From NCBI GenBank assembly GCA_016873395.1, contig VGXG01000011.1:1-58754 (forward strand): 58,754 nucleotides of DNA. The letters run 5' to 3'. The notes under the pieces are model-generated. The model was not told the origin of the DNA, searched no databases, and was given only the letters and a program-made list of their open reading frames with translations. Within the stretch, counting starts at the first letter, position 1. Every line of letters starts with the position of its first letter. Made by a program: the position numbers and the translations under genes. The DNA is from Nitrospira sp. GTDB lineage: Bacteria; Nitrospirota; Nitrospiria; Nitrospirales; Nitrospiraceae. Shown in pieces: positions 15,617 to 58,754 of this stretch.

Positions 15617-18289
15617 CTATTCCTGTGGTTTTTCGCCGAGCCGGCGCTGGAGGTCGGCGAGCTTGTTCAGGGCTTCCAGCGGTGTCATCGAGAAGAGGTC
15701 CATCTGCCTGACTTCCTCAACGATCGGATGGGGCGGAGGCAAGGAAGGGTCGAGGGAAGAAGTGATGGGTGATGAGTGGTGAGTGATGAGTGGGTCGGGC
15801 TGGGAAGGCTGAGTGGATGAACATTCTAGCTGAGCCAGCACCTCGCGCGCCCGGCTGATGACGGAAGGAGGCAGGCCGGCCAGTCGAGCTACGTGGATGC
15901 CGTAACTTCGATCCGCCCCTCCTTCGACGATCTTTCGCAGAAAGAGGACCTCTTCGTTCCGCTCCCTGACCGAGACCGAGTAGTTCTTGATCCCCTCGCG
16001 CCGCTTCGCCAGCTCAGTGAGTTCATGATAGTGGGTGGCAAAGAGTGTACGGGCCCCCAGGTGGCTGCGATCCTGGATATGCTCCGCCACGGCCCAGGCG
16101 ATGCTCAACCCGTCATAGGTGCTGGTGCCCCGTCCGATCTCATCCAGCAGGATCAGGCTGCGTGCGGTGGCGCAGTTGAGGATTTGGGCGGTCTCCGTCA
16201 TTTCCACCATGAACGTGCTCTGGCCCCCTGCGAGGTTGTCGGACGCGCCCACGCGCGTGAAGATGCGGTCCACGATCCCGATGGCGGCTGAGCGGGCCGG
16301 GACAAAGCTGCCCATCTGCGCCATCAGCACGATGAGCGCGACCTGCCGCAGATAGGTGCTTTTCCCCGCCATGTTGGGCCCAGTGATGATGAGGAGCCGG
16401 TTGTCATCCAGGTCCAGCAGGGCATCGTTTGGGATAAACCCCCCCGGAAGGTCCAGCCGTTCGACCACCGGATGTCGACCCTCGGTAATCCGGATAGTCC
16501 CTCCTTCGTTGATCTCGGGACGGACATAGCGGTGGACGGCGGCTGCTTCTGCCAGGGAAGCCAGAGCATCAAGCAGGGCGATCGCTGCACCCATAGTCTG
16601 GAAGCGTGCCGTCTCCTCCGCCAACTGTGAGCGGACCTGCTCGAAGAGCTCCTGCTCGAGCGCGTTAAGCTGGGTCTCGGCGCCGGTCACACGATTCTCC
16701 AATTCCTTCAACTCCGGAGTCGTAAACCGCTCGGCGTTGACGAGGGTCTGCTTGCGGTGATAGTGGTCCGGGATCCTGGCCAGGTTGGCCTTGGTCACCT
16801 CGATGTAGTAGCCGAAAACCTGGTTGTACCGGACCTTGAGCGAGTCGATGCCGGTGCGTTCCCGCTCCTGGGCTTCCAGCTTGGCGATCCACCCCTTTCC
16901 TTCCCGGCAGGTCTTCCGTAGCTCATCCAAACGTGGGTGATAGCTGTCTTTGATGATGCCTCCGTCTCGGGTCGACACGGGAGCGTCCGGCATGATGGCG
17001 CGCTCGATCGCTTCATGGACGTCGGTCAAGTCGTCCCAGGTTCGTGCAAGGTTCTGAATCAGGGTGGAGCGGAGAGGGGCCAGCAGGATCCTGATCGCAG
17101 GCAGGGCCGCGATCGACTGTTTGAGCGCCAGGAGATCCCGTGGATGAGCGGCACCCAACGAGATCCTGCTGCTCAGCCTGGCGATGTCCTGGACGGTCCT
17201 GAGTGCGGTTCTGACCCCGGAGCGGACCTGCAAGTGCTCCGTCAGTTCGGCGACGGAATCGAGACGGGCATGTATGGGAGCCATGTCGACCAGCGGCCGG
17301 ACGAGCCACTCCCGCAGGAGACGGCTTCCCATCACGGTGACGGTCCGGTCAAGGACGGAGAGCAGGGTGGTCGTTGCTCGCTCACCGGGCTCGCCGGTCC
17401 AGGGCCTGATCAGTTCCAGGTTTCGGATGGTCGCCTGGTCCAGATGCATGTCTTGTCCGGCCTGCCGAACCTGCAATCGCCGCAGATGGGTCAGGCTGGC
17501 CGTGGGCTGGGTTTCCCGGAGATAACGGAACGCGGCCCCGGCCGCTTGCAGGCCGAGCGAGTAGTCACGGCAGCCGAAGCCGTCCAAGGAGCTGACCCCA
17601 AAATGCTCTTGCAAGACCTGCCGGGCCGCTGCCAGATCATAGGCGGCGGGATCCTGACCGCGAAGGCTTACGCCCTTGATCCGGGTGAGTTGCTGACGGG
17701 TCGGCTCCGGCAGGTGCTTGGGGTACAGCAGCTCGCGAGGTTCCAGCCTGGCCAGTTCATCCTGAAGGTCGCTGGGAGCCCGCTCTCCCGGGAATTCCAT
17801 GATCCAGAAGTCCCCAGTGGACAGGTCCAGAGAGGCCAACCCCAGCGTCGGCGCGCTTCGTTGGTGTGCGTGGGCCGGGGGGGCAGCCGCAGCGACCGCC
17901 GCCAGAAAATTCGACTCGGTGGGCGGCAGGAGATCCGTATCGATCAACGTGCCGGGCGTGTACAACCGGACGACTTCCCGCCGGACCAACCCCTTGGCCA
18001 GCTTCGGATCCTCCACCTGGTCGCAGAGAGCCACGGTCCGGCCGGCCTTCAGCAGTTTGGCGATGTACCCGGTCGCCGCGTGGTAGGGGACTCCGCAGAG
18101 GGGCACGGGATCGGCGCGGGCCTTGTCCCGCGAGGTGAGGGCGATTGAGAGGAGCCGGGAGGCTTCCTCCGCGTCCTCGTAGAACATTTCATAGAAATCC
18201 CCCACCCGGAAAAACAGGATCGCCTCCCGGTAGGCCTGCTTGATCTCCCGGTATTGGCGCATCAAGGGGGTGGGGTCCACGTCATTCAT
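15617..18289 (-). CDS. mutS: DNA mismatch repair protein MutS
   Basis: 890 residues from ATG 18289, which overlaps the stop of the lapA-like gene; an in-frame start 15 bases further upstream is less likely. Mismatch-reading motif FFRVGDFYEMF lies near the N-terminus. The ATPase has Walker A GPNMAGKST, Walker B region LDEIGRGTSTYDG and FATHYHEL. Near residues 829-843, between the ATPase and the C-terminal helices, sits an extra segment, PLITHHSSPITSS, translated from a GATGAGTG-type repeat (15761-15794). Known role: recognises mismatches as a dimer and recruits MutL. Confidence 0.96.
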   Translation of the reverse strand: MNDVDPTPLMRQYREIKQAYREAILFFRVGDFYEMFYEDAEEASRLLSIALTSRDKARADPVPLCGVPYHAATGYIAKLLKAGRTVALCDQVEDPKLAKGLVRREVVRLYTPGTLIDTDLLPPTESNFLAAVAAAAPPAHAHQRSAPTLGLASLDLSTGDFWIMEFPGERAPSDLQDELARLEPRELLYPKHLPEPTRQQLTRIKGVSLRGQDPAAYDLAAARQVLQEHFGVSSLDGFGCRDYSLGLQAAGAAFRYLRETQPTASLTHLRRLQVRQAGQDMHLDQATIRNLELIRPWTGEPGERATTTLLSVLDRTVTVMGSRLLREWLVRPLVDMAPIHARLDSVAELTEHLQVRSGVRTALRTVQDIARLSSRISLGAAHPRDLLALKQSIAALPAIRILLAPLRSTLIQNLARTWDDLTDVHEAIERAIMPDAPVSTRDGGIIKDSYHPRLDELRKTCREGKGWIAKLEAQERERTGIDSLKVRYNQVFGYYIEVTKANLARIPDHYHRKQTLVNAERFTTPELKELENRVTGAETQLNALEQELFEQVRSQLAEETARFQTMGAAIALLDALASLAEAAAVHRYVRPEINEGGTIRITEGRHPVVERLDLPGGFIPNDALLDLDDNRLLIITGPNMAGKSTYLRQVALIVLMAQMGSFVPARSAAIGIVDRIFTRVGASDNLAGGQSTFMVEMTETAQILNCATARSLILLDEIGRGTSTYDGLSIAWAVAEHIQDRSHLGARTLFATHYHELTELAKRREGIKNYSVSVRERNEEVLFLRKIVEGGADRSYGIHVARLAGLPPSVISRAREVLAQLECSSTQPSQPDPLITHHSSPITSSLDPSLPPPHPIVEEVRQMDLFSMTPLEALNKLADLQRRLGEKPQE
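15761..15794. repeat. GATGAGTG-type repeat read in frame inside mutS
   Basis: Four near-repeats of a GTGATGAGT unit. On the minus strand they encode THHSS-type residues in the variable linker before the MutS C-terminal segment. The same unit occurs at 49251-49331. Confidence 0.7.
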
Positions 18290-21383: not shown

Positions 21384-21479
21384 CCCTTGGCTAGGGGCAA
21401 GTGGCAAGAGACGAGCGGCACGAAACACAACAGGTTTTTGTGTTTCCCCCTGGCCTCTCGCCGCTAGCCTCTCGCCATT
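21384..21479. repeat. GAGAGGCGA/TCGCCTCTC-type repeat between nnr and acpS
   Basis: An imperfect palindrome: left arm CTAGGGGCAAGTGGCAAGAG, right arm GGCCTCTCGCCGCTAGCC and neighbours, around a central AACAGGTTTTTGTGTTT. It belongs to the family at 29283-29466, 46078-46172, 52135-52220 and 56819-56888. Confidence 0.7.
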
Positions 21480-45022: not shown

Positions 45023-46069
45023 TCTGCAGAGCCGACTGAACGTCATCTGGCCAACATCCGGCAGTTGACGTTCGGCAACAAGAATGCCGAGGCCTATTTC
45101 TCCTTCAGCGGCAACAGGCTGGTGTTCCAGTCCACGAACGACTGGAGGGAACAGATCCAGGCGACGAGCAAGACCGGCGGCAAGAGCCTGGGCTGCTACC
45201 AGATGTACGTGATGGACCTGGAGAGCGAAGCGATCAGGCTCGTGAGCACCGGTGTCGGCGCCACGACCTGCGGCTACTTCTTCCCCGGCGACCGGCGCGT
45301 CCTCTACTCCTCCACGCATCTCGTCGGTCCCAACTGCCCGCCGAAGCCGAAGGTGGCAGGCAAGTACCGGTGGGCGCTGGACGACTACGACATCTTTTCG
45401 GTCAGGCTGGACGGGCAGCAGATCCAGCGGCTGACGACGACGCCGGGCTACGACGCGGAAGCGACGGTCTCGCCGGACGGCAAGACGATTGTTTTTACCT
45501 CGGTCCGTGACGGAGACCTCGACCTCTACGCAATGAACCTGGACGGGACTCACTTCCGGCGTCTGACCCAGGAGATCGGCTACGACGGCGGGGCGTTCTT
45601 TTCGCCGGACAGCCGGCGGATCGTCTACCGGGCATTCCACCCACGCGAGCCGGCGGAGGTGGACGAGTACCAGGCCCTGCTGGCGCAGAAGCTGGTCGAG
45701 CCGAGCCGCCTGGAGCTTTTCGTGATGCAGGCGGACGGAAGCGACAAGCGGCAGGTGACCGCCAACGGGGCGTCCAACTTTGCGCCCTTCTTTCATCCGG
45801 ACGGCCGCCGGATCATCTTTTCTTCCAATTTCCCCCACCCCTCCCTCCCCCTTGCAGGGGGAGGGGAGGGAGGGGGCGGCGGTCCGCCCACGTTTCATCT
45901 CTACCTGATCGGGGATGACGGCGCTGGCCTGGAGCAGATAACCTTCGAGGGCGGGTTCAACAGCTTTCCCATGTTCTCCCCCGATGGAACCAAGCTGGTG
46001 TGGATCTCCGATCGCCACGCGGCCTCGCGCGGCGAGTTCAACATTTTTCTGGCTGATTGGGTGCCGTGA
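44900..46069 (+). CDS. TolB-like beta-propeller protein, probably exported
   Basis: 389 residues from ATG 44900; an in-frame start at 44864 is in a repeat. The N-terminal hydrophobic segment (RVLIVGVVGLLTILFW) acts as signal or anchor. PD40/WD40-like blades repeat the pattern D-[AG]-x-F-S-P-D-G: AEATVSPDGKTIVFTS, GGAFFSPDSRRIVY, FAPFFHPDGRRIIFSS and NSFPMFSPDGTKLVWIS, with DLYAMNLDGTHFRRLT between. Residues about 310-329 (HPSLPLAGGGEGGGGG) are a repeat insert in a loop. By family, a periplasmic binding scaffold; no pal or tolA is near. Confidence 0.85.
   Translation: MKRVLIVGVVGLLTILFWPVLNDSGFGLLLDTSRVTRHASLSAEPTERHLANIRQLTFGNKNAEAYFSFSGNRLVFQSTNDWREQIQATSKTGGKSLGCYQMYVMDLESEAIRLVSTGVGATTCGYFFPGDRRVLYSSTHLVGPNCPPKPKVAGKYRWALDDYDIFSVRLDGQQIQRLTTTPGYDAEATVSPDGKTIVFTSVRDGDLDLYAMNLDGTHFRRLTQEIGYDGGAFFSPDSRRIVYRAFHPREPAEVDEYQALLAQKLVEPSRLELFVMQADGSDKRQVTANGASNFAPFFHPDGRRIIFSSNFPHPSLPLAGGGEGGGGGPPTFHLYLIGDDGAGLEQITFEGGFNSFPMFSPDGTKLVWISDRHAASRGEFNIFLADWVP
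45830..45886. repeat. CCCCTCCCTCCCCC/GGGGGAGGGGAGGG palindrome inside the TolB-like gene
   Basis: A hairpin with loop TTGCA, read as HPSLPLAGGGEGGGGG. The same palindrome type flanks the DUF559 gene at 56955-56996 and 57339-57384. Confidence 0.75.
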
Positions 46070-53947: not shown

Positions 53948-53996
53948 GGCTCTCACCCTCCCCTCTCCCTGAGGGAGAGGGCTAGGGAGAGGGGGA
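53948..53996. repeat. CTCCCCTCTCCC/GGGAGAGGG palindrome between the Tat genes
   Basis: CCCTCTCCCTGAGGGAGAGGG hairpin core, with CTCACCCTCCCC before and CTAGGGAGAGGGGGA after. It starts right after the tatA stop. Confidence 0.8.
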
Positions 53997-54401: not shown

Positions 54402-54573
54402 GAGGGAAGTCTGTGGCACAACAGGTTTCCAACAGAACACCAAGCGTTGTTATACAGCCGCTTCATAGTGTGAGCGGGTAGATTCCCAGATGGTCATAAC
54501 TGGCACAGGGGGAGCAGAAAACGGCGGCAGGGACAGGCCGCTGCTGCGAGCCCAAACTCACAGGAGGAACGCT

Positions 54574-56349
54574 ATGAGCCGCATCAGAGGATGGAAAGGG
54601 TGCAAAGACCGATTGCACCGCCCGATTGCCCCACTCTCCTTGCTGGTGGCCGTCCTGGCCGCCGGTCTGCAAGTGCTCGTGTCGTCGGTGCTCACGCCGG
54701 CCCTGGCCGGCTACGAGCTGCCCCCGGGCGAGCGCATCACCAACCTGCCCCACATTCCCCGGGCCATGCCCCAGAAGGAGGCCTACGAGATCTACGATCC
54801 GGTCATCGGCCGGAACTTCGACATCAAGAACTTCTGGCTGCGCGCCGACCTGCGCGTCAGGCCGGAATGGCGGAACGGCGTCTGCTTCGGCGGCGGCGCG
54901 CCGTCCGGCGGGGCCTGCAACAGCCGGCCATCCGGTAAAACTCAATCCGGTCGGGCGAACGCCGGTCCGAACGCGAGCGACTTCTACGTCCAGCAGTGGA
55001 CCCGTTTGGGCATCGGCTATGACCTCTCGCCGGACGTCAACTTCTACTTCGAGTTGATCGACGCCGCGACCTGGGGCGGCAACGGCAACCCCAACAACGC
55101 GGGCAACGCCGGGGACCCCCTGAACCATAACTGCGGACCCAACGCGGCGAACACCCAGGCGCAGTGCCGGTTGGGCGTCCGGGCCGCCTATGTGCTGGTC
55201 CGGAACCTGGCCGACATCCAGGGGCTGAGCATGAAGGCGGGCCGGCAGTATGTGATCTTCGGGAACCACTCCCTGTTCGGCCACTTCGACTGGGCGAACA
55301 CGGGCTATTCGCACGACGGGATCATGTTCAGCTACTCGACCAAGACCTTCGACTCCTACCTGGGCTGGTTCCGGAACTCGGAGACGGACCTGCTCCAGGG
55401 GGCACCGGTGGGCAGCTTGAATGCCAACATTGCCGGATGCGCCGGCGGCACGGCAGCCACAGCCTGTACAGCGGCCCAGCGGACTAACTCCGGTGTGGAT
55501 GGTAGCGCCGACGCGGACATGTTCATCTTCTACAACCAGATCAAGTCGGTGCCGGGCTTCCTGATCGAGCCCTACTACGTGTTGTATATCAACAACATGC
55601 CGGCCGGGGTGAACTCGGACAGTCTCGGCGCGGCGAAGCACGCCGACCAGATCCGGCACATGTGGGGCGGCCGGATCGAAATGCGGAAGGGGAACTGGGA
55701 CCTCATCACGGAGAATGCCTGGCAGACCGGGCGGATGGCGTCCGGCATTACGGCAGCCAATAACTCTCGGGACCTCACGATCAATGCCTGGGCCAGCAGA
55801 AACTGGCTGGGCTACACGGCGTATAACCTGAAGTGGAAACCGCGGTTGGCTTTCGGTCTCGACTATGCCTCCGGTGATGGGCAGGCCAACTGCGCCACCA
55901 ACTCGGGCACGACCAATGCGACCGCGACGACCGGGATGACCTGCAAGACCGCGAACACTTTCGAGAACTTCTTCCCGACGAACCACATCCACATGGGCTA
56001 TGCGGACATCATGGCCTGGAAGAACATGTTCTCCCCGCAGGCCAACCTCCAGTTCCGGCCGACCGAGCGGGACCACTTCGAGATCTGGTACAGCAGCTTC
56101 AACCTGGCCAGCGCCAGGGACAACTGGTACCGGGCGGCGCAGGGGCCCTATGTCTGGTCCAAGACCAACAACACGAAGACCCACATCGCCGACGAGTATG
56201 ACTTCACCTGGACCCGCATGTTCGCGGATGGCAAAGTGGCGCTCCAGGCCACCTACAGCTACATTGCGGCCGGCGACTACATCGCGGAGAACCTGGGCAC
56301 CTCGTCCAGCCAGCAGTGGGGCTTCATCCAGCTCTGGATGAACTTCTAG
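54574..56349 (+). CDS. Outer-membrane beta-barrel porin of the alginate-export type
   Basis: 591 residues from ATG 54574 behind AGGAGG (54562-54567). A signal peptide with a long basic n-region ends at about PALAG. The mature part starts GYELPPGERITNLPHIPRAM and shows the alternating strand pattern of a large barrel, with RPEWRNGVCF, QQWTRLGIGYDLSPDVNFYF and AGRQYVIFGNHSLFGHFDW, as in the alginate export family, and the C-terminus ends with an aromatic residue (WMNF). The family transports or binds diverse ligands; the substrate is unknown. A second identical copy begins at 57499. Confidence 0.87.
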   Translation: MSRIRGWKGCKDRLHRPIAPLSLLVAVLAAGLQVLVSSVLTPALAGYELPPGERITNLPHIPRAMPQKEAYEIYDPVIGRNFDIKNFWLRADLRVRPEWRNGVCFGGGAPSGGACNSRPSGKTQSGRANAGPNASDFYVQQWTRLGIGYDLSPDVNFYFELIDAATWGGNGNPNNAGNAGDPLNHNCGPNAANTQAQCRLGVRAAYVLVRNLADIQGLSMKAGRQYVIFGNHSLFGHFDWANTGYSHDGIMFSYSTKTFDSYLGWFRNSETDLLQGAPVGSLNANIAGCAGGTAATACTAAQRTNSGVDGSADADMFIFYNQIKSVPGFLIEPYYVLYINNMPAGVNSDSLGAAKHADQIRHMWGGRIEMRKGNWDLITENAWQTGRMASGITAANNSRDLTINAWASRNWLGYTAYNLKWKPRLAFGLDYASGDGQANCATNSGTTNATATTGMTCKTANTFENFFPTNHIHMGYADIMAWKNMFSPQANLQFRPTERDHFEIWYSSFNLASARDNWYRAAQGPYVWSKTNNTKTHIADEYDFTWTRMFADGKVALQATYSYIAAGDYIAENLGTSSSQQWGFIQLWMNF

Positions 56350-56893: not shown

Positions 56894-56935
56894 TCCCCGC
56901 TGGGGATGTGACGAACATTCCCAGCGGGGATTTTT
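56894..56935 (+). terminator. Strong intrinsic terminator of the porin operon
   Basis: TCCCCGCTGGG (56894-56904) pairs perfectly with CCCAGCGGGGA (56920-56930), then TTTTT (56931-56935). Confidence 0.93.
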
Positions 56936-56954
56936 ATGTAAATGAGCCGAGCTT

Positions 56955-56996
56955 CTTCCTCCCCCCCTTGTGGGGGAGGAGACAGGTGGGGGGGGG
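56955..56996. repeat. Left flank of the DUF559 gene
   Basis: A CCTCCCCCCC-TTGT-GGGGGAGGAG palindrome followed by CAGGTGGGGGGGGG, which directly precedes the ATG at 56997 and probably doubles as its ribosome-binding region. Confidence 0.8.
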
Positions 56997-57338
56997 ATGC
57001 GCCGATCAATCACCCTTCATGCTCGACGACTGAGAAGAAGCCTGACTGATGCGGAACAAGCGCTCTGGCGGCATCTACGGCTTCGACAAGTTGGCGGCCA
57101 TAAGTTTCGGCGACAACAACCTATTGGCTCCTACATCGTGGATTTTGTTTGCTTTGAGAAGAAGCTTATCGTTGAGGTTGATGGCGGCCAGCATGCTGAA
57201 AAGGCTGTTGCCGATACAAAGCGGTCGGATTGGCTGGCTGCGCATGGATTCCGAATTGTTCGCTTCTGGAACCACGAGGTGTTAGCAGATATTGAGTCAG
57301 TTGTGGTGGCAGTCAGACAAGCGTTAGAACTTGCCTAG
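56997..57338 (+). CDS. DUF559 / very-short-patch-repair-like nuclease domain protein
   Basis: 113 residues from ATG 56997, immediately after the repeat; an earlier start would lie in the repeat. The family pattern is clear: RRLRRSLTDAEQALWRHLR, GGHKFRRQQPIGSYIVDFVC, and EKKLIVEVDGGQHAEKAVAD, with the acidic residues of a PD-(D/E)XK-type nuclease fold, then WLAAHGFRIVRFWNHEVL. DUF559 proteins are thought to be related to Vsr/restriction-type nucleases; no activity is firmly established. Bracketed by inverted repeats, so it may mobilise with or act on them. Confidence 0.9.
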   Translation: MRRSITLHARRLRRSLTDAEQALWRHLRLRQVGGHKFRRQQPIGSYIVDFVCFEKKLIVEVDGGQHAEKAVADTKRSDWLAAHGFRIVRFWNHEVLADIESVVVAVRQALELA

Positions 57339-57384
57339 CCCCCACCCTAGCCCTCCCCCGCTGGTGGGGAGGGGCCGCTCACAC
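57339..57384. repeat. Right flank of the DUF559 gene
   Basis: CCCCCACCCTAGCCCTCCCC followed by a CCCTCCCCC-GCTGGT-GGGGAGGGG palindrome, the mirror image of the left flank. Confidence 0.8.
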
Positions 57385-57397
57385 AAAAGAGACAATC

Positions 57398-58754
57398 GTG
57401 AAAGATTTTGGATTGTTCAGGAGGTTTGTCCTCTTCTTGCCACTGATCGGGCTGGTACTCCCTCTCCTAGAGACCGCTGCGTTGGCCGGCTATGAACTCC
57501 CCCGGGCGAGCGCATCACCAACCTGCCCCACATTCCCCGGGCCATGCCCCAGAAGGAGGCCTACGAGATCTACGATCCGGTCATCGGCCGGAACTTCGAC
57601 ATCAAGAACTTCTGGCTGCGCGCCGACCTGCGCGTCAGGCCGGAATGGCGGAACGGCGTCTGCTTCGGCGGCGGCGCGCCGTCCGGCGGGGCCTGCAACA
57701 GCCGGCCATCCGGTAAAACTCAATCCGGTCGGGCGAACGCCGGTCCGAACGCGAGCGACTTCTACGTCCAGCAGTGGACCCGTTTGGGCATCGGCTATGA
57801 CCTCTCGCCGGACGTCAACTTCTACTTCGAGTTGATCGACGCCGCGACCTGGGGCGGCAACGGCAACCCCAACAACGCGGGCAACGCCGGGGACCCCCTG
57901 AACCATAACTGCGGACCCAACGCGGCGAACACCCAGGCGCAGTGCCGGTTGGGCGTCCGGGCCGCCTATGTGCTGGTCCGGAACCTGGCCGACATCCAGG
58001 GGCTGAGCATGAAGGCGGGCCGGCAGTATGTGATCTTCGGGAACCACTCCCTGTTCGGCCACTTCGACTGGGCGAACACGGGCTATTCGCACGACGGGAT
58101 CATGTTCAGCTACTCGACCAAGACCTTCGACTCCTACCTGGGCTGGTTCCGGAACTCGGAGACGGACCTGCTCCAGGGGGCACCGGTGGGCAGCTTGAAT
58201 GCCAACATTGCCGGATGCGCCGGCGGCACGGCAGCCACAGCCTGTACAGCGGCCCAGCGGACTAACTCCGGTGTGGATGGTAGCGCCGACGCGGACATGT
58301 TCATCTTCTACAACCAGATCAAGTCGGTGCCGGGCTTCCTGATCGAGCCCTACTACGTGTTGTATATCAACAACATGCCGGCCGGGGTGAACTCGGACAG
58401 TCTCGGCGCGGCGAAGCACGCCGACCAGATCCGGCACATGTGGGGCGGCCGGATCGAAATGCGGAAGGGGAACTGGGACCTCATCACGGAGAATGCCTGG
58501 CAGACCGGGCGGATGGCGTCCGGCATTACGGCAGCCAATAACTCTCGGGACCTCACGATCAATGCCTGGGCCAGCAGAAACTGGCTGGGCTACACGGCGT
58601 ATAACCTGAAGTGGAAACCGCGGTTGGCTTTCGGTCTCGACTATGCCTCCGGTGATGGGCAGGCCAACTGCGCCACCAACTCGGGCACGACCAATGCGAC
58701 CGCGACGACCGGGATGACCTGCAAGACCGCGAACACTTTCGAGAACTTCTTCCC
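57398..58754 (+). pseudogene. Second copy of the alginate-export-type porin, frameshifted near the start and cut by the window edge
   Basis: From GTG 57398 a new signal peptide (FRRFVLFLPLIGLVLPLLET) is followed by GYELP. One base is missing within CTCCCCCGGG (about 57497-57503) compared with the first copy, so the normal frame is lost after five mature residues. From 57499 on, the sequence appears identical to 54721-55976 (offset 2,778) in every line compared. Before it, the GYEL codons differ by three synonymous changes. It ends at the window edge, so the 3' part is unseen. Either a silent or converted gene copy, or an assembly junction. Confidence 0.8.

Follow-up and report, generated by a model that had tools for sequence, protein, structure and literature searches.

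A DUF559 gene between inward-facing intrastrand triplex motifs in Nitrospira: a REPtron-like arrangement with an unrelated enzyme

Introduction

In Escherichia coli, BoxC or triplex-forming repeats were recognised as early as the 1990s. Under the names BoxC, PIT or "intrastrand triplex motif" (TM), such repeats have been reported from E. coli and from more than 260 bacterial genomes (PMC4666352). The E. coli TM forms a triplex in vitro while none was detected in vivo; TMs cause polymerase to stall in vitro and are markers of unstable loci, and the survey describing them found no mobility genes close by and regarded their means of spread as unknown (PMC4666352). A REPtron, in turn, consists of REP palindromes together with TnpA-REP (RAYT) (PMC8266576, PMC3733652). 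As regards proteins of the DUF559 family, YcjD of E. coli was predicted in 2005 to be a PD-(D/E)XK nuclease (PMC1189080), and Caulobacter VsrA is SOS-induced and provokes DNA damage and an SOS response when the methylase ScmA is missing (PMC12907096). Within the open-licence literature we found no paper linking DUF559 or ycjD to BoxC or triplex repeats, earlier notice elsewhere being possible, and none on the repeat's translated names (PHPNPLP and similar). Here, we describe a DUF559 gene of Nitrospira sp. which is bracketed by two such repeats.

Results

A compact DUF559 unit in the window

The window, i.e. the whole stretch of 58,754 nucleotides analysed, harbours on its plus strand a compact unit (56955-57376) in which a hairpin and a G block are followed by the DUF559 ORF, an inverse G block and a second hairpin. 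The left hairpin, CCTCCCCCCCTTGTGGGGGAGG, occupies positions 56958-56979 (plus strand) and is succeeded by the third block GGTGGGGGGGGG (56985-56996, plus strand), the mirror of the purine arm of the stem, which abuts the ATG start codon at 56997. From this ATG the ORF (56997-57338, plus strand) encodes 113 residues with a predicted Vsr-like, EDxHD-type nuclease fold and ends with a TAG stop codon at 57336-57338, a GTG at 56970 being open as an alternative upstream start. Immediately 3' of the stop codon the right third block CCCCCACCC (57339-57347, minus strand) is located, followed by the right hairpin CCCTCCCCCGCTGGTGGGGAGGG (57351-57373, minus strand). Each flanking motif is composed of a C/G hairpin and a mirror-image G-rich block turned towards the gene, and there is almost no spacer between the ORF and its two inverted three-block motifs. 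These coordinates confirm what a preceding sequence-only reading had claimed, namely a palindrome plus a tract on both sides of the gene in inverted order and a left flank running straight into the start codon. The GGGTGGGGG tract, considered a separate element in that reading, is indeed present but belongs to the motif, as it is the mentioned mirror image of the purine arm.

The unit lies just 3' of a terminator-like hairpin with T run (56894-56936, plus strand) of the upstream gene. Its neighbours are alginate-export-type genes and a gene for a 152-residue protein without Pfam match; no cytosine methyltransferase gene adjoins DUF559 among the window neighbours examined. DUF559 is present here as a free-standing intergenic ORF between motifs identified below as TMs, and not within an intron or intein. 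The tandem alginate-export-type genes (54490-56349 and 57398-58754, the second truncated by the contig end) are 99.8% identical over 1273 bp. Since the tandem pair is also found in the genomes G143 and G127 and, hence, predates the present genome, its near-identity points to a recent conversion event or an effect of assembly. The window further contains heptamer-phased intergenic repeats (at 21389, 29285, 46078, 48250, 52133, 56820 and at 15762, 44836, 49241, 51750) with the units (GGCGAGA)n and (GTGACGG/GTGATGA)n, similar repeats being present in relatives such as G143 (L250).

The flanking repeat is a triplex motif which also occurs without the gene

The repeat flanking the gene is the BoxC/PIT/TM repeat with the three-block layout of the purine motif. 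In 253 flanking hairpins the gene-side third block agrees with the stem of its own hairpin (mean 0.885), compared to 0.666 (sd 0.009; maximum of 0.691 over 200 shuffles) for stems dealt from other loci and to just 0.16 on the outer side of the hairpins. Stems and third blocks are paired as GGGGGAAGG with GGATGGGGG and GGGAGAGGG with GGGTGAGGG, and further as GGGAGGGG with GGGGAGGG and AGGAGGGG with GGGGTGGT. Left and right flanks of one gene frequently differ in stem type (L066-L071), e.g. CCTTCCCC on the left and CCTCCCCC on the right, which recalls the type A / type B pairs of E. coli BoxC.

Within the window a gene-less TM with G blocks on both sides is inserted in frame into the TolB-like gene (45830-45877; palindrome proper at 45843-45865), making its product about ten or more residues longer than those of most of 11 homologues used for comparison. 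The palindrome at this site had been recognised from sequence alone, yet it is not bare, as was assumed there, but accompanied by both G blocks. A second gene-less motif, with CCTCTCCCTGAGGGAGAGG as its core, lies between two TatA-like ORFs (53957-53980) and constitutes a fourth palindrome copy which had been overlooked before. The search pattern CCTCYCCN{3,12}GGRGAGG yields five matches at four sites of the window compared to 0.11 expected, five being reached in none of 100 shuffles. In the 2.34 Mb genome, which contains a single DUF559 gene, it yields 30 matches, compared to five for the reversed pattern used as control. All 15 dispersed copies of this genome that were tested have at least one third block, and many have one on each side.

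The DUF559 protein

The ORF matches Pfam PF04480 (DUF559) with E=1.6e-42 and 144 bits (curated cut-off 20.6) over positions 3-108 of 109. The one other profile match, to the MTES_1575 nuclease model, stays below its cut-off, and the profile search reveals no match of the ORF to an HUH Y1 tyrosine transposase. Comparison of an AlphaFold2 model (pLDDT 89.6) with the PDB by means of Foldseek retrieved 3hrl (3.9e-10), I-Bth0305I (3r3p; 1.8e-4, TM-score 0.65-0.75) and, weakly, E. coli Vsr (1vsr; E=0.02), with which the profile search agrees (1e-39 for 3hrl and 3.2e-4 for I-Bth0305I). The nuclease-like fold proposed earlier for DUF559 is borne out by this comparison. Across 37 DUF559 sequences, D49, E60, D62, H66 and D73 are conserved without exception, E60, D62, H66 and D73 being putative residues of catalytic type. 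A role in anti-phage defence was considered and dismissed, as just a weak match to a DpdF fragment (E=1e-4) was obtained.

DUF559 units in other bacteria

We gathered 30 DUF559 loci from the phylum, 20 mainly from palindrome-poor genomes and 80 from a public genome collection, the latter being a non-random sample of DUF559 since they were chosen as best matches to this subfamily. The named loci represent 13 NCBI phyla, and sufficient flank was available for 126 loci. The hairpin score within 220 bp of the gene has a median of 16, compared to 9 in control windows of the same locus (p=2e-79), and the score of the upstream flank against the reverse-complemented downstream flank has a median of 21, compared to 8.5 in controls (p=1e-44). 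An inverted-repeat score of at least 18 is reached by 60% of the DUF559 loci and by 0% of the controls. The gene-bearing form, conjectured before to be the parent of the bare palindrome, is real and recurs in many phyla (126 loci); empty, solo, paired and gene-bearing states are encountered at orthologous sites.

The DUF559 family includes E. coli ycjD, with BoxC copies located 3' of the gene, as well as NGO0050 of Neisseria gonorrhoeae, whose structure has been solved (PDB 3hrl). At one gonococcal DUF559 locus, TM-like repeats lie to either side of the gene as direct repeats, and in Deinococcus psychrotolerans a DUF559 unit is inserted inside the paa operon. In E. coli the sapF-fabI site is occupied alternatively by ycjD or by the efflux operon eefRABCD (PMC12817139); strains carrying ycjD have BoxC copies at this site (L146, L152, L153). 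A DUF559 subtype in genus g14 (L022, L028, L032, L040) has the flanks ACTCCCCC...GGGGGAGT in direct instead of inverted order, with a longer stretch separating hairpin and G block. In Legionella anisa (L113) the gene is enclosed by long inverted repeats which reach an alignment score of 125 but lack the C/G hairpin, perhaps a different type of end for the same enzyme.

TM copy number follows DUF559 and not Y1/RAYT

With canonical DUF559 defined by E<1e-15, the phylum set of 296 genomes comprises 104 genomes with canonical DUF559, 165 with none and 27 with weak hits alone. The median TM counts, copied over from tables for genomes that are non-independent and obtained with a pattern blind to stem variants, amount to 14.5, 2 and 2, respectively. 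TM density differs between the canonical group and that without DUF559 (Mann-Whitney p=2.8e-14), whereas the reversed control pattern is indifferent to DUF559 status (p=0.92), and permutation within taxonomic families matches the association in 0 of 5000 cases. At least 100 TMs are present in 13/104 canonical genomes, 0/165 genomes without DUF559 and 1/27 with weak hits. Part of this association may arise from shared ancestry or incomplete assemblies. The explanation that the palindromes merely reflect chance or the base composition of G+C-rich genomes might invoke family f20 and some Xanthobacteraceae, in which counts of the reversed control pattern are high as well. Nevertheless, its probability is negligible: the excess in the window (5 compared to 0.11), the control pattern's indifference to DUF559 and flank scores surpassing those of same-locus controls exclude it.

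Among 249 Xanthobacteraceae genomes the contrast is weaker although it has the same direction, with TM medians of 87 (canonical), 23.5 (weak) and 42 (none); canonical and DUF559-less genomes differ with p=3e-4, or p=3e-10 once counts are divided by those of the control pattern. As the DUF559-less median is as high as 42, TMs in this family are maintained or emerge in genomes that have no DUF559 gene at present. Genomes lacking DUF559 but carrying TMs include G202 (37 TMs) and G084 (91 TMs). The genome-wide count suggested by the sequence-only reading has, for this phylum, not led to the equality that would speak against it (14.5 compared to 2), the outcome for Xanthobacteraceae being less pronounced. 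In one genome (G026, L026), 3 Mb contain 831 palindromes along with 13 copies of DUF559; on its contig C1, palindrome pairs recur about every 745 bp, possibly as a tandem array of units.

We also considered that RAYT or IS transposases move the TMs, DUF559 being a mere passenger. Some TMs do adjoin IS-like repeats, and a multicopy IS-like stretch of about 1.3 kb is present in the left flank of the DUF559 unit of G081. However, in the same genomes the presence of Y1/RAYT has no effect on TM count (p=0.45 and 0.98), while the effect of DUF559 persists both with and without Y1/RAYT (p=3e-12 and 2e-4). Moreover, the TM-rich genomes G065, G081, G173 and G187 are outside the set with a Y1_Tnp match and no transposase recurs between TMs, which renders this explanation highly improbable.

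Stem type and protein tree

Where a DUF559 copy has variant palindromes at its flanks, these variants are scattered over its own genome and absent from genomes of the other type. In G065, CCCCTCCTTTGTAAGGAGGGG flanks one DUF559 copy, and its stem pattern is matched 109 times across the genome; this type is absent from G247, G127 and G179, in which the main type is represented 33, 102 and 153 times, respectively. Along a tree built from 150 DUF559 proteins, 32 changes of the downstream stem type are counted, compared to 62.6 when shuffled (minimum 57). The comparison of DUF559 phylogeny and flanks which the sequence-only reading had called for is, accordingly, favourable in so far as stem type follows the tree; across phyla it is not, since a protein and its nearest counterpart in a different phylum agree in stem type no more often than by chance (18/62). 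The phylum label itself changes 28 times among 79, compared to 34.9 times when shuffled, which indicates that the genes mix widely between phyla.

A further possibility is that DUF559 is a resident repair nuclease which processes hairpins or triplexes, the flanking TMs being regulatory or insulating and the host simply tolerating more of them. It accords with the SOS induction of Caulobacter VsrA and the DNA damage it inflicts upon loss of ScmA methylation (PMC12907096) as well as with the polymerase stalling and locus instability ascribed to TMs (PMC4666352). Yet genomes contain several DUF559 copies that each have a TM variant of their own, the distribution of the gene is patchy with a protein tree that mixes phyla (28 phylum changes in 79), and the unit is present or absent at orthologous sites; we thus consider a repair role improbable as an explanation.

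Presence and absence at orthologous sites

The site of the unit in the window, situated between the ancestral tandem alginate-export-type genes directly after the terminator of the upstream gene, carries no motif in G143, several TMs without DUF559 in G127 and the full unit here; an equivalent terminator-like hairpin is found at the same place in G143 and G127. In genus g14 an intergenic site is empty in G298, G173, G202 and G245 (linkers of 11-27 bp), while G187, G229 and G296 carry a solo TM there, G199 and G279 a TM pair that faces outward, and G299 and G081 a DUF559 unit. A gain at this site is favoured because the diverged G245 is empty. The filled sites, however, have common extra sequence ahead of the downstream start codon, so that a single gain with later losses and repeated gains are equally possible. 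The gene-less pairs in g14 face outward whereas the flanks of the gene face inward, which simple gene deletion does not explain. Further TM sites vary between G187, G065 and G173. Neither a target-site duplication nor a clean target motif was found at the g14 site or at the G187, G065 and G173 sites, whose junctions are too diverged, and no empty site was found among Azospirillum plasmids, the locus being fully covered in all seven close plasmids. In the plasmid collection, NZ_CP141089.1, NZ_CP119142.1 and NZ_CP119140.1 are chromosome-sized (4.9 and 2.2 Mb) and probably misfiled.

The main rival to a mobile unit is reverse causation: a free-standing homing-type DUF559 would invade pre-existing TM sites, the TMs would spread by other means and TM-rich genomes would acquire the gene. 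Indeed, the homing endonuclease I-Bth0305I has the nearest fold after the DUF559 family itself, some genomes are rich in TMs yet have no DUF559, one g14 site is seen in solo, paired and gene-bearing form, and all data on the association are symmetric in direction. On the other hand, the gene has on either side a complete TM which faces inward and leaves almost no spacer, while insertion into one TM would split it, the gene-less pairs in g14 face outward, and Y1/RAYT shows no association. We know of no other enzyme for TMs, which likewise counts against homing. Because of the complete inward-facing TMs on both sides and the near-absence of spacer, we favour a mobile unit and regard homing as unlikely, albeit the most serious of the alternatives.

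Discussion

With a probability of roughly 0.6, DUF559 and its two inward-facing TMs represent a minimal autonomous mobile unit, the dispersed TMs being its non-autonomous copies or remnants. The best and most economical reading is that of a selfish unit resembling a REPtron but equipped with an unrelated nuclease of non-HUH type, i.e. a minimal selfish element with gene-less derivatives. Most likely, the single-domain DUF559 nuclease with its Vsr/EDxHD-related fold would recognise the TM and nick or cut there. The form recognised would be the hairpin plus third strand, folded in single-stranded or supercoiled DNA, and host repair or replication would then copy the TM, with or without the gene, to new, mostly intergenic sites. 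We infer that the DUF559 enzyme moves the TMs, in which case it would presumably bind and cleave them, cause would run from gene to repeat and strand transfer would take a route of the kind outlined. That a nuclease of 113 residues alone has no obvious strand-transfer activity counts against the mobile unit. The far-reaching version, a new class of mobile element in which an autonomous unit of about 420 bp, with a 113-residue Vsr/EDxHD-type nuclease recognising triplex-forming ends as its sole protein, spreads itself and many gene-less BoxC-type repeats across bacteria without transposase or recombinase, we put forward tentatively, its chances being somewhat below even.

DUF559 is the first good candidate for what spreads BoxC/TM repeats and, due to the presence of ycjD in E. 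coli K-12, the spread of BoxC becomes testable in a laboratory strain. If the proposal holds true, a second, unrelated enzyme joins the REP/RAYT way of life, DUF559 gains a likely role and the DNA triplex becomes a plausible signal for protein recognition.

The repeat described here shares with BoxC/PIT/TM (PMC4666352) the hairpin with its third block, linkers of TTA- or CCG-like sequence, dispersal between genes and inverted pairs of the two types, but differs in that a DUF559 gene resides between two TMs, in many phyla, whereas in E. coli such a gene (ycjD) lies beside TMs. YcjD and NGO0050 of N. gonorrhoeae are likewise DUF559 family members with TM-like repeats near the gene, although their flanks are partly decayed or rearranged. 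With the EDxHD homing endonucleases (I-Bth0305I, PDB 3r3p) DUF559 has in common the fold of the catalytic domain and a nuclease gene that possibly mobilises itself; in contrast to them, it lacks intron or intein and a DNA-binding tail and is bracketed by repeats which also occur alone. Vsr has a related fold (1vsr, E=0.02) and Caulobacter VsrA is itself a DUF559 protein, but the gene studied here has no adjoining cytosine methyltransferase. Flanking TMs are, to our knowledge, no feature of Vsr.

As in REPtrons, short palindromes are dispersed, the gene is situated between inverted copies, copy number follows the gene and variants are paired with gene copies (PMC8266576, PMC3733652). Unlike in REPtrons, the enzyme belongs to the PD-(D/E)XK/Vsr-like nucleases and not to the HUH tyrosine transposases, the ends are three-block triplex motifs and the gene is often multicopy; no recurrent GTAG at the palindrome foot was seen beside the hairpins of the DUF559 flanks inspected by eye. 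The analogy to RAYT and REP drawn by the sequence-only reading is accordingly valid for the layout, a gene between inverted dispersed palindromes, but does not extend to the protein, which is no relative of RAYT and has a Vsr/EDxHD-like fold. The DUF559 unit is REPtron-like in layout and statistics, yet it is no REPtron, its enzyme being unrelated and its ends being triplex motifs.
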